From: an uncultured Bacteroidota bacterium
Lineage (GTDB): Bacteria > Bacteroidota > Bacteroidia > Bacteroidales > P3
Assembly: GCA_902776365.1 (NCBI GenBank)
Contig: CACYPU010000001.1
Span: forward strand, 186,001 to 250,000
Reading direction: 5' to 3'
Length of the DNA stretch: 64,000 bases
Shown here: positions 3,433-64,000 of the stretch, in pieces
Layout of the letters: each line of letters opens with the position of its first letter
How positions within the stretch are numbered: position 1 is the stretch's first letter
Position numbers and translations under genes: made by a program
Notes under the pieces: generated by a model
What the model was told of the DNA's origin: nothing
Databases searched by the model: none
What the model saw: only the letters and a program-made list of their open reading frames with translations

Positions 3433-3463
3433 AATGTGTTAATGTGTTAATGTGTAAAAATGT
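3433..3463. repeat. Degenerate tandem tract, unit TGTGTTAA
   Basis: About three and a half copies of an 8-nt unit fill the nqrF-frdC spacer. It belongs to the class of short tracts scattered over the window and may separate the two cistrons without a terminator. Confidence 0.7.
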
Positions 3464-3466
3464 TAG

Positions 3467-4771
3467 TCATTTCTTCGGGGCACCGCCGCCGAAGTCGTCG
3501 TAGGCGATGTTCTCGGGCTGGACGCCGAGGTTGTCGAGCATATTGACAACGGCGCTGCTCATGGGGCCGGGGCCGCACATGTAGTACTCGATGTCCTCGG
3601 GGGCGGGGTGGTCCTTGAGGTAGGTGTCGTACATCACCTGATGGATGAAGCCGGGGGTGTAGGGCACTCCGGCGGCATCGGCGGCGGGGTCGGGGCGGTC
3701 GAGGGCCAGATGGAAGTGGAAGTTGGAAAAATCTTTCTCTAACTGGTGGAAGTCGTTGAGGTAGAACACCTCGTTGAGGGCGCGGGCGCCGTAGAAGTAG
3801 TGCATGGGGCGGTGGGTGCAATGGAGGGTGCGGGTTAGGTGCATGATCTGTGCGCGGAGAGGAGCCATACCGGCGCCGCCGCCGACCCATATCATCTCGT
3901 TGCCCTGCGGGTCGTCGCTCCAGGTGCCATCCTCGGTGCCGCGGACGCGGAACTCGCCGTAGGGACCGCTCATGATGACCTTGTCGCCGGGCTTCAACGA
4001 GAAGATATATGAAGAGGCTATGCCAGGGTTGACGTTCTGGAAACCGCTGCGGTCGGCCGTGAAGGGAGGAGTGGCAATTCTAACCGTCAGCATGAAGACG
4101 TCGCCTTCGGCGGGATAGTTGGCCATGGAGTAGGCGCGCACGGTGGGCTCGGTGTTGACGCAGACGAGGTCGAACATCTTGAACTTCTCCCATGCGGGCA
4201 GGTACTTGTCGCCGATAAGCGAGCGGTCGAAGTCGCTGTATTTGATGCGGAAGGTGGGTATCTTGATCTGGGCGTAGCTGCCGGGCACGAAGTCCATGTG
4301 CTCGCCGGCGGGCAGTTGCACCTTGAACTCCTTGACGAAGGTGGCCACGTTGCGGTTGCTCACCACCGTGCACTCGTATTCCTTGATGCTGAGGATGCTC
4401 TCGGGGAGCTTGAGGCTGAGGTCTTCCTTGACCTTCACCTGACAGCCCAGGCGCCAGCCTTCCTGTATCTGCTTGCGGCTGAAGTGGGGCGTCTCGGTGG
4501 GGAGGATGCTGCCGCCGCCTTTGACGACGCGGCATTTGCACTGGCCGCAGCTGCCCTTGCCGCCGCAGGCCGAAGGCAGGTGGACGCCCTGCTCGCTGAG
4601 GGTGCTGATAAGTGTGCCGCCCGTCGGTACGGTCATTTCTTTGTCGTCGTTGATGGTAATCTTCACGTTGCCCTGCGGGATGAGCTTGGCGCGCAGGATG
4701 AGCAGCGCCGCCACCAGCAGCAGAATGACGACCAGGATGATTATGATTGCAGATATTAATGTTGTTGACAT
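3467..4771 (-). CDS. nqrF: Na+-translocating NADH:quinone reductase subunit F
   Basis: Electron-entry subunit of Na+-NQR, 434 aa: it oxidises NADH through FAD and passes electrons to a 2Fe-2S centre. One N-terminal membrane helix (residues 5-27) precedes a plant-type ferredoxin domain with Cys69, Cys75, Cys78 and Cys110. A ferredoxin-reductase module follows, with the FAD motif RAYSMANYP and the NAD-binding segments MIWVGGGAGMAPLR and YYMCGPGPM, ending GGGAPKK as in other NqrF. It is the last gene of nqrABCDEF. The 38-nt spacer to nqrE is filled by a CTTAACTA repeat tract. Confidence 0.97.
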   Translation of the reverse strand: MSTTLISAIIIILVVILLLVAALLILRAKLIPQGNVKITINDDKEMTVPTGGTLISTLSEQGVHLPSACGGKGSCGQCKCRVVKGGGSILPTETPHFSRKQIQEGWRLGCQVKVKEDLSLKLPESILSIKEYECTVVSNRNVATFVKEFKVQLPAGEHMDFVPGSYAQIKIPTFRIKYSDFDRSLIGDKYLPAWEKFKMFDLVCVNTEPTVRAYSMANYPAEGDVFMLTVRIATPPFTADRSGFQNVNPGIASSYIFSLKPGDKVIMSGPYGEFRVRGTEDGTWSDDPQGNEMIWVGGGAGMAPLRAQIMHLTRTLHCTHRPMHYFYGARALNEVFYLNDFHQLEKDFSNFHFHLALDRPDPAADAAGVPYTPGFIHQVMYDTYLKDHPAPEDIEYYMCGPGPMSSAVVNMLDNLGVQPENIAYDDFGGGAPKK

Positions 4772-4780
4772 AATCTATTG

Positions 4781-4813
4781 GCTTAACTACTTAACTACTG
4801 TCTACTTAACTAC
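4781..4813. repeat. Degenerate tandem tract, unit CTTAACTA
   Basis: Three imperfect copies of CTTAACTA(C) lie in the nqrE-nqrF spacer, touching the nqrE stop codon. It is one of the dispersed short tracts described in the findings. Confidence 0.7.
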
Positions 4814-62053: not shown

Positions 62054-62499
62054 TTGTTGAGCGTCGAGAAGAGTGTTGTTGTCGTGGTGGACAAGGCCTG
62101 CTGGTTTTGCTGGGTGGTGTTGCTTGAACTGACGTTGGAGAGGCCGTTGCACAGCAGCAGGGCGTTGATGAAGGCGTTAACGTTCTGGTTGGTAATCAGC
62201 CCGGCGGACGACATAACGAGGCCGGTGGCGAAGGCGGTGCGGTAGCTGGAGTTGCCGGCGTTGGCCTTGATTTGCGTGTAGCAGGTGGCCAGCGAGATGG
62301 CGTGGGCCAGGTTGTTGCCGGCGGTGAGGTTGATGGTGCCGGTGGACTTGTAGGAGTTGTAGAGACCCAGGACGGCGGTGCCGCAGGTCTGTCCCATGGT
62401 GGTGGCGGCGGTGTTCGACGAGGTGACCGAGTTGAGGATGCCGCAAGAAGAGAATGCCATAGTGGCAAAACATACCAAAATGATAGATAAACGTTTCAT
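62050..62499 (-). CDS. Predicted lipoprotein, Ser/Thr/Asn/Ala-rich, 149 aa
   Basis: The signal peptide ends in AFSSC (Cys19). The mature protein is rich in Ala, Ser, Thr and Asn, with GLYNSYKSTGTINLTAGNN and ISLATCYTQIKANAGNSSYR; it looks helical and ends in a Gln/Ser/Thr run. It resembles small Bacteroidota lipoproteins with no assigned role. It has a -7 box TATCTTTG at 62549-62542 and leads the unit lipoprotein-nitroreductase-secreted protein. Confidence 0.75.
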   Translation of the reverse strand: MKRLSIILVCFATMAFSSCGILNSVTSSNTAATTMGQTCGTAVLGLYNSYKSTGTINLTAGNNLAHAISLATCYTQIKANAGNSSYRTAFATGLVMSSAGLITNQNVNAFINALLLCNGLSNVSSSNTTQQNQQALSTTTTTLFSTLNK

Positions 62500-62541
62500 A
62501 TTGTGTTGTTTTTAATTATTAATGATTCTATTTATCAATTG

Positions 62542-62549
62542 CAAAGATA
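62542..62549 (-). promoter_or_regulatory. -7 box of the lipoprotein-nitroreductase unit
   Basis: TATCTTTG fits TAnnTTTG, 43 nt before the ATG. The -33 region lies in an AATTAAAA tract (62551-62586) and is not clear. Confidence 0.55.
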
Positions 62550-62572
62550 CAACTAATAATTAAAAATAAAAA

Positions 62573-64000
62573 TTAAAAATTAATAATTTCGTCCAATTCG
62601 AGCCAGTGGAGCTCTTTCTCGTCGAGCAGGGCCATCACCTCGCCGATGCGGGTGGATGCCTTGGTTATCTCGGTCGGGTCGGTGAGGGTGCCGTCGCTGA
62701 GCTTCGTCTCGAGATCGACTTTCTCTGCCGTGAGGGCATCAATCTCGGCGGTGAGGGCTTCGTACTCTTTCTGCTCCTTGTAGGTCGCCTTCTTCTTAGG
62801 TGAAAGATGAGAGGTGAGAGGTGAAAGGTCGCTTGCGCGATTAGCAGCTTTTTTCTCTTTTTCTTCTTTCACCTTTAACCTTTCACCTTTCATCTTTTCT
62901 AGCCGGTAGATGGTGTAGTTGCTATGGTAGTCGCGGATTTTTCCGTTGCCCTCGAAGACAAGAAGATGGTCGACGATGTGGTCCATGAAGGAGCGGTCGT
63001 GGGAGACGATGATAAGGCAGCCCTTGTAGGTCTGCAGGAATTGCTCGAGAATCTGCAAGGTGTAGATGTCGAGGTCGTTGGTGGGCTCGTCGAGGATGAG
63101 GAAGTTGGGGTTGGCCATGAGGACCTGCAGCAGGTAGAGGCGACGTTTCTCGCCGCCGCTGAGGTTGCCGAAGTAGTTGTACTGTGTGGTGCCGTCGAAG
63201 CCGAAGTAGGTGAGGAACTGGTGCGCCGACATGCTCTTGCCGTTGTCGAGCTCTATCTCTTCGGCGATGTCCTTGACGAGGTCGATGACGCGGCGGTCGT
63301 CGGGCGCCGTCATGCCGGCCTGGGTGTAGTAGCCGAACTGGATGGTCTGTCCCACCACCACGCGCCCGCTGGTGGGCCTGATTTTCTCAGTGATGATGTT
63401 GAGGAACGTGCTCTTGCCCACGCCGTTGGGTCCCACGATGCCTATCTTCTCCCCCTTCTTAAACACATAACTGTAATCGTCAATTATTGGGGCATTTGTC
63501 TTGCACTCCCTTGTACTCCCTTGCACTCCTTGTACTACATAAGAGATATTGTACAGTTCCAGTATCTTGCCGCCGATGCGCTCGGTTTTGACGGTGAGTT
63601 GGGGGCGGGAATCGTCGAAGCGGGTGTGCGCCTTGGCTTCCAGCTCGTAGAAGGCGTCGATGCGGGCCTGGGCTTTGGTGCCGCGGGCCTGGGGCATACG
63701 GCGCATCCACTCCAGCTCCGTGCGGTAGAGGCTACGGGCTTTCGCCACCTCGGCGCGCTCGTTGGCTTCGCGCTCGGCCTTCTTCTCGAGGTAGTAGTCG
63801 TAACGGCCTTTGTAATGATAGAGGCGGGCGTTGTCGAGTTCGTAGATGTTGTCGCAGACGTTGTCGAGGAAGTAGCGGTCATGGGTGACCATCAGGATGG
63901 CCAGCCGCTGACGTGAGAGGAACTCCTCAAGCCATTCTATCATGTCGATGTCGAGGTGGTTGGTGGGCTCGTCGAGGATGAGCAGGTTACAGTCGTCCAT
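62573..64000 (-). CDS. ABC-F family ATPase (partial, N-terminus beyond right edge)
   Basis: 475 codons visible; the frame is still open at base 64000 and the first ATP-binding domain is missing. The first codons read NLLILDEPTNHLDIDMIEWL (end of domain 1), then a charged arm with YRTELEWMRRMPQARGTKAQ, then domain 2 with Walker A VGPNGVGKSTFL, signature LSGGEKRRL, Walker B LILDEPTNDLDI, and a C-terminal coiled coil. ABC-F proteins act on the ribosome (translation or antibiotic resistance); the linker and C-terminal coil resemble Uup/EttA-type housekeeping members. It carries a TTGCACTCC tract (VQGVQGSTRECKTN) and an inverted pair of CTTTCACC tracts (GERLKVK, LSPLTSHLSP). Confidence 0.93.
   Translation of the reverse strand: MDDCNLLILDEPTNHLDIDMIEWLEEFLSRQRLAILMVTHDRYFLDNVCDNIYELDNARLYHYKGRYDYYLEKKAEREANERAEVAKARSLYRTELEWMRRMPQARGTKAQARIDAFYELEAKAHTRFDDSRPQLTVKTERIGGKILELYNISYVVQGVQGSTRECKTNAPIIDDYSYVFKKGEKIGIVGPNGVGKSTFLNIITEKIRPTSGRVVVGQTIQFGYYTQAGMTAPDDRRVIDLVKDIAEEIELDNGKSMSAHQFLTYFGFDGTTQYNYFGNLSGGEKRRLYLLQVLMANPNFLILDEPTNDLDIYTLQILEQFLQTYKGCLIIVSHDRSFMDHIVDHLLVFEGNGKIRDYHSNYTIYRLEKMKGERLKVKEEKEKKAANRASDLSPLTSHLSPKKKATYKEQKEYEALTAEIDALTAEKVDLETKLSDGTLTDPTEITKASTRIGEVMALLDEKELHWLELDEIINF
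62798..62895. repeat. Inverted pair of CTTTCACC-family tracts in the ABC-F gene
   Basis: Arms 62798-62829 and 62867-62895 are loose reverse complements. The coded peptides GERLKVK and LSPLTSHLSP match those in the macroglobulin gene (52755-52855). Confidence 0.85.
63493..63538. repeat. TTGCACTCC-family tract in the ABC-F gene
   Basis: Four 9-10 nt units preceded by CATTTGTC, sharing 15 exact nt with rarA and the queA-rarA spacer. Coded peptide VQGVQGSTRECKTN versus VQGVQGSAKECKTN in RarA. Confidence 0.9.

Follow-up and report, generated by a model that had tools for sequence, protein, structure and literature searches.

Heptamer tandem tracts in a Bacteroidales gut bacterium, in part arms of a 76-nt hairpin read in one frame, as candidate non-autonomous palindromic elements

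How does one short tandem repeat come to lie in many unrelated genes of the same bacterial genome? The question is raised by a stretch of 64,000 nucleotides (hereafter the window) from an uncultured Bacteroidota bacterium (Bacteroidales, P3), contig CACYPU010000001.1 of assembly GCA_902776365.1, positions 186,001 to 250,000 (G000:C1:186001-250000 in our labels, in which G denotes a genome and L a sequence stretch). The genome, G000, amounts to 2.23 Mb in 18 contigs and is 89.65% complete; the host is a gut bacterium, and its relatives come from ruminants. An initial annotation of the window had described families of degenerate tandem tracts in spacers and in frame inside conserved genes, and held that some copying process is implied. 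Here, we report that part of these tracts are inverted pairs with a conserved centre, a feature missed by that annotation, and that the ACCCACT family forms a 76-nt hairpin which, within genes, is read in a single frame. We consider it somewhat probable that the tracts as a whole go back to ORF-tolerant (ORF, open reading frame), non-autonomous palindromic elements with an unusual tandem-arm build, i.e., candidate mobile elements copied in trans.

Tandem Repeats Finder recovered tracts in the window at the places first annotated. With a score of at least 36 there are 50 non-overlapping arrays (periods 7-11, 14, 16, and 20), 33 of which lie wholly within ORFs of a hand-made gene list; some of the 50 resemble ordinary codon repeats (e.g., 4935-4952 and 40541-40558). 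Host genes with Pfam matches include leuS, folC (Mur-ligase domains), atpB (ATP-synt_A), and nqrA, and further those of an MgsA/AAA protein, an alpha-2-macroglobulin, and an ABC-F-like ATPase. The description of tracts in spacers and in conserved genes stands. The comparison with chance was made on 160 kb of G000 unselected for tracts, which is our unbiased count: 19 period-7 and 9 period-14 arrays (score at least 45) against 0 and 2, respectively, in five order-3 Markov simulations summed. Thirteen of the 19 are in ORFs of at least 180 aa. A set of 464 kb (120 period-7 arrays) and the G000 ortholog sample, in which 90 of 192 tracts are well within long ORFs, consist of stretches picked for ACCCACT. 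Outside the genus, 40 kb of one genome of the same order gave no arrays, and 36 kb of another genus of the family gave no period-7 and five period-21 arrays.

The recurrence of one family in unrelated places is seen over the whole genome: (ACCCACT)3 with up to three mismatches has 98+98 matches in G000 (overlapping registers counted), and its reversed-letter control has none. With up to two mismatches, it is frequent in 2 of 19 genus genomes (its own included), and seven more have 1-9 matches, one of them being G002, where the reversed control (7) nearly equals the real count (9); it is absent from 12 of 12 genomes from other families of the order. Scoring 16 candidates per genome gave hits in nine genomes from other families of the order, and eight places from six of these nine (L229-L236) hold hairpins of heptamers whose loops differ. 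Tracts of period 7 exceed chance by far and turn up in gene after unrelated gene, and the original observation is confirmed.

The (ACCCACT)3 matches are often found in minus/plus pairs with constant spacing. Twenty places inspected mostly read (AGTGNNN)n-AGCA-about 12 nt-TGCT-(ACCCACT)n, and the ACCCACT element, the best defined of the families, is an imperfect 76-nt hairpin of four AGTGNNN units, AGCA, an asymmetric loop of about 12 nt, TGCT, and four ACCCACT units. A pattern scan of species genomes produced 77 stretches, 56 from Bacteroidales or rumen Bacteroidetes and 21 from elsewhere; by eye, the latter are mostly lone hairpins without repeated arms, L079, L080, and L129 having heptamer arms. 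The 56 stretches and those of G000 yielded 63 sites at which one or more units flank the centre to the left and to the right (some are one site in two species), and 62 sites with distinct flanks were selected by centre and one unit per side, arm length being free. Among these 62, exactly four units make up 48 left arms and 44 right arms, 38 sites have 4+4 units, five have an arm of more than four, and 20 have a shorter arm; the loop from AGC to GCT is 14 nt in 53. Please note that the 36-copy alignment and the 48-row set both required four units per arm, and the constancy of length was rechecked without that filter on the 62 sites. In the 48-row set, 44 rows measure 76 nt, six loci being present on both strands (about 42 elements), and the 36 copies chosen for 4+4 units have a mean column identity of 90%. 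The stem has 32 positions with 86.4% of its cells paired, and the ends, AGTG...CACT, pair from the first base in all 36 aligned copies. A/T is enriched in the flanks, with shares of 0.50-0.81 over the eight positions next to the element on both sides as compared with 0.43 in the background, and no target-site duplication was seen in them by eye, in a comparison made without a strain-level empty site.

At least 27 of the 59 genus genomes, which are incomplete metagenome-assembled genomes (MAGs), match the hairpin model at E<=1e-4; 81 candidates were scored per genome, and copy numbers are lower bounds. G000 has at least 49 matches and G012 at least 50 with both strands counted, therefore about 25 places each at the least. 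One 76-nt copy had no match in plasmid and phage collections, and spread on plasmids or phages was set aside. A search of the window with the hairpin model found no strong full ACCCACT element; the window holds half-elements and other families. Stretches of G000 picked for ACCCACT contain 33 arms, 14 with an inverted partner within 45 nt and 19 single, and both ACCCACT arms of the window and the unselected 160 kb are single. The tract by itself, the form described in the initial annotation, is not always the unit, the paired arms being parts of the 76-nt hairpin. The GCT junction with the centre is kept in 14 of 52 unpaired arms. A higher share of paired arms (95 of 147) comes from a biased set, many of its loci having been fetched for the hairpin, with an expression that also caught TTTCCAC and GACCACT units.

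Forty of the 63 sites lie in an ORF open for 150 nt on both sides, all 40 in the forward orientation and in frame 1. Three are open only in reverse, all of them orientation ties (in two, L087 and L119, the forward frame also reads through), and 20 are open in neither. The copies in ORFs encode one kind of peptide, of the VGSGECVVDSTRGQMLPTTHYPLPT type, so that a palindromic repeat lies in frame within unrelated protein genes. It follows directly from the sequence that a pure AGTGGGT arm has TAG in every frame. Left-arm unit 2 closes with G or C in all 34 in-gene rows, none of which has the T that would make TAG at this place; that T is present in 12 of the 14 remaining rows, of which six are the opposite reading of loci already counted. 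The stop-free state of in-gene copies is partly forced by selection. One arm, AGTGGGG-AGTGTGT-AGTGGAT-AGCA, is common to 15 distinct sites, which suggests, as far as likeness of sequence can tell, a single frame-compatible lineage.

Could the hairpins be functional sites (terminators, RNA or protein binding sites) that spread for their usefulness? The 23 sites outside a forward open frame would suit such a role, and a regulatory role has been proposed for the TAACTGA repeats of Beggiatoaceae (PMC4679880). The majority of sites within ORFs speak against it, as do the 32 of 59 genus genomes without a match at E<=1e-4 among the candidates scored and the lack of compensation within the stem: both partners have changed in 2 pairs against 6.5 in shuffles, i.e., the stem shows no covariation and is not kept as an RNA structure in place. 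We regard this explanation as extremely improbable. An RNA function was likewise rejected, Rfam having found in the window and three copy-bearing loci only a cobalamin riboswitch and tRNA.

Sites compared in relatives bear on how the tracts arose. The folC gene, aligned with 29 genus relatives and judged by eye, has four tracts on the plus strand: T1 (ACCCACT, 20110..20137), T2 ((ACCCACT)4, 20263..20292), T3 (ACCTTTC, 20609..20641), and T4 (TTTTCAA, 20868..20902). T2 is a 15-residue insertion missing in 28 of the 29, and the 29th (L044) has another palindromic insert there. The tract length found in the window is kept in 26 of 29 relatives at T1 and in 18 of 29 at T4, and in some species several different tract families occupy these sites. 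T3 is two residues off most relatives; in many of them other tandem families are found there, and related units containing TTC recur across many species in one shared register. In leuS (16 genomes), the ATGGGTCTA tract at 36038..36072 (plus strand) equals four tract-free orthologs in length, and the other 12 are longer by 2-18 residues; the same loop holds the 76-nt ACCCACT hairpin in G012. In G048 the loop is taken by a hairpin of 8-nt units around a TGCTGACGCA centre, and further genomes have units of 9 nt there. An AACTCCG tract (52081..52113, plus strand) is equal in length in both orthologs compared. Over 170 ortholog rows (some loci fetched twice), there are insertions, same-length cases, and one shorter tract (nqrA). 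Full elements are 12-24 residues longer than orthologs judged tract-free by eye, which is less than the element's own 25 residues; therefore, host residues seem to be lost. Relatives thus display tracts gained as insertions, tracts that replace a stretch of equal length, and sites whose tract family changes from species to species. The same-length replacements lay beyond what the initial annotation could see. In a separate pair of stretches, a GTAGGGGCGTAC hairpin in L045 occupies a site that holds an ACCCACT hairpin in L132.

Slippage with concerted evolution would have tracts arise in place in weakly constrained loops, the units drifting together and the families being convergent. Unit variants within tracts, the existence of long arrays, and the shared register of the TTC-containing units at folC T3 fit it. 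Against this, units of 7 nt within frames cannot grow stepwise without breaking the frame, which argues against stepwise growth; one 76-nt sequence with a non-repeated centre lies in unrelated genes; ACCCACT matches stand against an empty control; and folC T2 is absent from nearly all relatives. Slippage is already contradicted for the ACCCACT hairpin, could hold for individual solitary tracts, and seems to us quite improbable as the general explanation.

Short-patch ectopic copying would let a DNA single strand from one tract pair with another place through microhomology and replace a segment about as long there, so that tracts spread with no transposase involved; the process is known as SPDIR. 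It would explain why folC T1 and T4 keep the length found in the window in most relatives despite several tandem families there and why the leuS tract has a net gain of 0 over four tract-free orthologs, and it agrees with the commonness of solitary tracts, with the replacement of host residues by full elements as well, and with the lack of an associated transposase or reverse transcriptase (RT). The near-constant 4+4 build and 14-nt loop are unexpected from random patches, the same-length sites may instead reflect selection on protein length, and 12 further orthologs have a longer leuS loop. On balance we hold this explanation unlikely, and the same-length replacements favour a role for ectopic patch copying.

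Block copying of a palindromic element is in our opinion the simplest reading. Near-constant 76-nt elements in unrelated genes, empty or differently occupied in relatives, support copying, and to this extent the original suggestion is borne out. The tracts would then derive from a set of short, non-autonomous mobile palindromes, being their arms, half-arms, or decayed copies, with sister families that have other units (7-11 nt) and other cores, one core serving several arm sequences. Copying in trans would place an element as a single block at a new site, a short host stretch being lost; the copies surviving in genes would be those already stop-free in one frame, and this ORF-compatible lineage would have spread from gene to gene as a loop peptide. 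One arm would often be lost later, leaving a solitary tract. The build of the element, its number of copies, its bias in orientation and frame, and the differences of sites between species are observed; the copying step, its presumed enzyme, and the remnant status of many solitary tracts are the parts that we infer.

Several results weigh against this proposal. The nqrA tract is shorter than four tract-free orthologs, and folC T1 and T4, leuS, and 52081-52113 are same-length replacements, where plain insertion predicts otherwise; one further comparison (the window row), of ambiguous status, is 9 residues shorter. Solitary arms outnumber paired ones in G000, in chosen and unchosen stretches alike, and there is no strong full element in the window, so that many tracts are at best presumed remnants. 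Arrays well beyond four units exist too, as in L149 near 10302, so that growth in place also happens. Finally, a mover was not found when the presence of two protein families was followed across the 59 genus genomes: among genomes with the element, 19 of 27 have Y1_Tnp and 11 of 27 RVT_1, and among the rest 21 of 32 and 14 of 32, respectively, a weak negative because the MAGs are incomplete.

An RT as the mover was rejected on these counts. In G000 and G048 the enzyme matches UG24 defence RTs, in G068 its nearest counterparts are retron-type XI/XII RTs, and in G012 and G031 there are weak matches only. The UG24-type RT is 1126 aa long (L249:26-3406 and L250:1214-4594, from G000 and G048), and the G000 protein also has an HD-CE domain.

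A system of the REP/RAYT type (repetitive extragenic palindromes and their associated tyrosine transposases) would have the hairpins moved by an IS200/IS605-like enzyme. The element is palindromic, dispersed, and intragenic, 40 of the 59 genus genomes carry Y1 genes, a RAYT-like gene is flanked by GTAGGGGCG hairpins in relatives (L177 and L178), and in L184 a TTATAGG heptamer hairpin is located about 0.5 kb upstream of an IS200-type gene, outside that element's own inverted repeats. The hairpins flanking the RAYT-like gene differ from the element, though; Y1 presence is unassociated with it; the element-rich G031 (81% complete) has no Y1 match and G000 one weak match; and there is no unpaired GTAG/CGTC end tag. 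Such a system is very improbable here, and Y1/RAYT as the mover was dropped, no ACCCACT-type hairpin being present among the inverted repeats listed around eight Y1 loci (for L184, five of its eight pairs). The RAYT-like gene (a 199-aa open frame in L177) with GTAGGGGCGTAC hairpins on both sides, at L177:1467-2188 and L178:1289-2041, looks like a REP/RAYT-like unit of the same genus.

The pairing of arms is not confined to ACCCACT. Among tracts of period 7 or 14 in the unselected stretches and window, 11 of 62 have an inverted partner no more than 130 nt away; the chosen stretches give 30 of 118 and the relatives 23 of 89, against 1, 5, and 2 when tested with another tract's flanks; direct partners number 1, 2, and 2, and 1, 6, and 0 with other flanks. 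Near non-ACCCACT tracts, 28.7 kb hold 18 copies of the core TGYGBCAGC (0.63/kb), against 125 in 1,089 kb elsewhere (0.11/kb), an enrichment that is not an independent test because the motif was picked from some of the same loci. By eye, 15 of the 18 cores are directly 5' of a pyrimidine-rich arm (TTTTCAA, ACCTTTC, TTTAAAC, 8-nt, or other), and several arm families share this one core. Tracts within 30 codons of the first ATG make up 9 of 25 TTTTCAA-type, 7 of 16 ACCTTTC, and 4 of 35 ACCCACT cases in sense ORFs, and the TTTTCAA type often forms leader-like peptides, e.g., IFNFQFSI. There are also separate near-perfect hairpins of 11-nt units, TTGTACGATAC, with a short loop AAATC/GATTT, in several copies in G000 (L153:5600-5702, L156, L157, L160, and L162).

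Two-armed features of the window belong to such other families. At 24737..24839, between genes, lies an element of 9-nt units with the centre GCAAGACAAATG...ATTGTCC; an AGGTGAA/ACCTTTC hairpin (52754..52853, plus strand) has both arms within a gene, and an AGGTGAA/CTTTCAC element (62798..62897, minus strand) is in the ABC-F-like gene. A weak match to hairpin model R1 (E 0.011) with AACACT/GACCACT arms is at 14321..14394 (plus strand) in gene 13295-14848. An AAAAATG-type heptamer tract (13185..13240) has an inverted partner at 13354-13383, 132 nt apart, and in the spacer at 53419..53495 a tract of 11-nt units is accompanied by another 11-nt tract, whose sequence is roughly the inverse. A composite at 39829..39914 (plus strand), with a CAGTGGT left arm, a TGCGTCAGCA centre, and a TTTTCAA right arm, forms the start of a GH3 and beta-lactamase-family (PF00144) protein. 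A near copy of it is found around L145:378, the two different ORFs (763 aa and a 717-aa frame) beginning near-identically, which, judging by the two sequences, looks as if a leader peptide had been exchanged.

Half-elements and tracts with a centre remnant come next. The half ACCCACT element at 7994..8038 (minus strand), four units and a centre remnant (AGCAGTCGGGCAAAGCC on the plus strand), is in frame in nqrA (7730-9037), where the repeat scan also gave an AACACT-type heptamer tract (8207..8237, minus strand). A TGCGTCGGCA-like centre (by eye) followed by a TTTTCAW tract codes the leader-like start of an AhpC/TSA protein (13343..13383, plus strand). A centre remnant CATTTGTCTTG (by eye) with a TTGCACTCC tract is found twice on the plus strand, within the minus-strand MgsA/AAA gene (24073..24121) and within the minus-strand ABC-F-like gene (63493..63529). 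TTTTCAA tracts lie in the leader-like start of gene 17969-19792 (18039..18067, plus strand) and in the N-terminal leader of atpB (58574..58600, plus strand). The remaining tracts are AGTGNTT (27293..27323, intergenic), AATTAAG upstream of leuS (33666..33689), the 8-nt TCAGGCAA between TerB and DnaJ domains (42694..42729, plus strand), GACCACT twice in one PNP_UDP_1 gene (44385..44414 and 44545..44569, minus strand) and once between genes (46066..46106), and CTTTCAC in the alpha-2-macroglobulin-type gene (51710..51735, plus strand). Unrelated to the heptamers, gene 44841-46037 has a long GC-rich coding repeat at 44938-45210 (periods 18, 42, and 54), and the cobalamin riboswitch (Rfam RF00174, 91.9 bits) is at 12167-12367 on the minus strand.

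Repeats of heptamers are on record from several phyla, with no mechanism given, among them the STRR of cyanobacteria; here, part of them are arms of a defined element. The likeness to those of Xanthomonas (GGGAATC), Nostoc, STRR, and Beggiatoaceae is in dispersed head-to-tail heptamers with several families per genome. The Xanthomonas motif mostly has four units and forms 70 and 75 convergent inverted pairs in two genomes (PMC4692102); TAACTGA of Beggiatoaceae is found also in five Bacteroidetes and in some ORFs, and MacGregor saw no evident transmission mechanism for it (PMC4679880). The Xanthomonas, cyanobacterial, and Beggiatoaceae repeats are mainly intergenic and are treated as repeats, G-quadruplex, or regulatory sites. 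The fixed-length hairpin, conserved centre, and single reading frame of our element are not described for the Xanthomonas and Beggiatoaceae repeats in the consulted portions of the two papers. Measured against the STRR pattern of tracts alone, mainly intergenic, our element gives a mixed picture: there are constant-centre hairpins, 40 of 63 within ORFs, and there are many solitary arms (19 of 33 in the chosen stretches).

REP with RAYT are small palindromes in many copies, some of them intragenic, Bacteroidetes being among the CGTC-type hosts (PMC3733652), and our element resembles the GTAG and CGTC families in these respects; it differs in having no end tag, a 32-position heptamer stem instead of 5-13 bp, and no Y1 association. 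Terminal inverted repeats, as in miniature inverted-repeat transposable elements (MITEs), are present. RPE (Rickettsia palindromic elements), which together with the heptamer repeats come closest among known systems, are short palindromes of several families, dispersed and in frame in unrelated genes with a conserved peptide (PMC10969869). Our element shares with them the in-frame palindrome in unrelated genes and a conserved peptide, read in a single frame at all 40 forward sites within ORFs; it differs in size (76 nt against about 150 bp), in phylum, and in its tandem-unit arms, which are not mentioned in the consulted description of RPE, and the two are likened by description, not by sequence. 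The statement in the initial annotation that no named element has this form is therefore half right: heptamer tracts, heptamer inverted pairs, and in-frame palindromes have each been described (PMC4679880, PMC4692102, and PMC10969869), and the heptamer-armed in-frame hairpin was not found in a literature search of titles and abstract openings. Its interpretation as a whole is partly supported.

An element with ends, a centre, an orientation, a frame, and polymorphic sites makes movement testable. It would be selfish DNA adapted to the conserved genes of a gut bacterium, and a possible route for unrelated proteins to gain near-identical loops and leader peptides. It is a tentative thought, which we rate as rather doubtful, that hairpins whose arms hold about four short tandem units are one unrecognised cross-phylum mobile class. 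Such hairpins would spread by overwriting small pieces of host sequence with no transposase of their own, be tuned to readability in a single frame, and provide proteins with new loops and leaders; the Bacteroidales elements, Xanthomonas GGGAATC, cyanobacterial STRR, and Beggiatoaceae TAACTGA would then be its members or remains.

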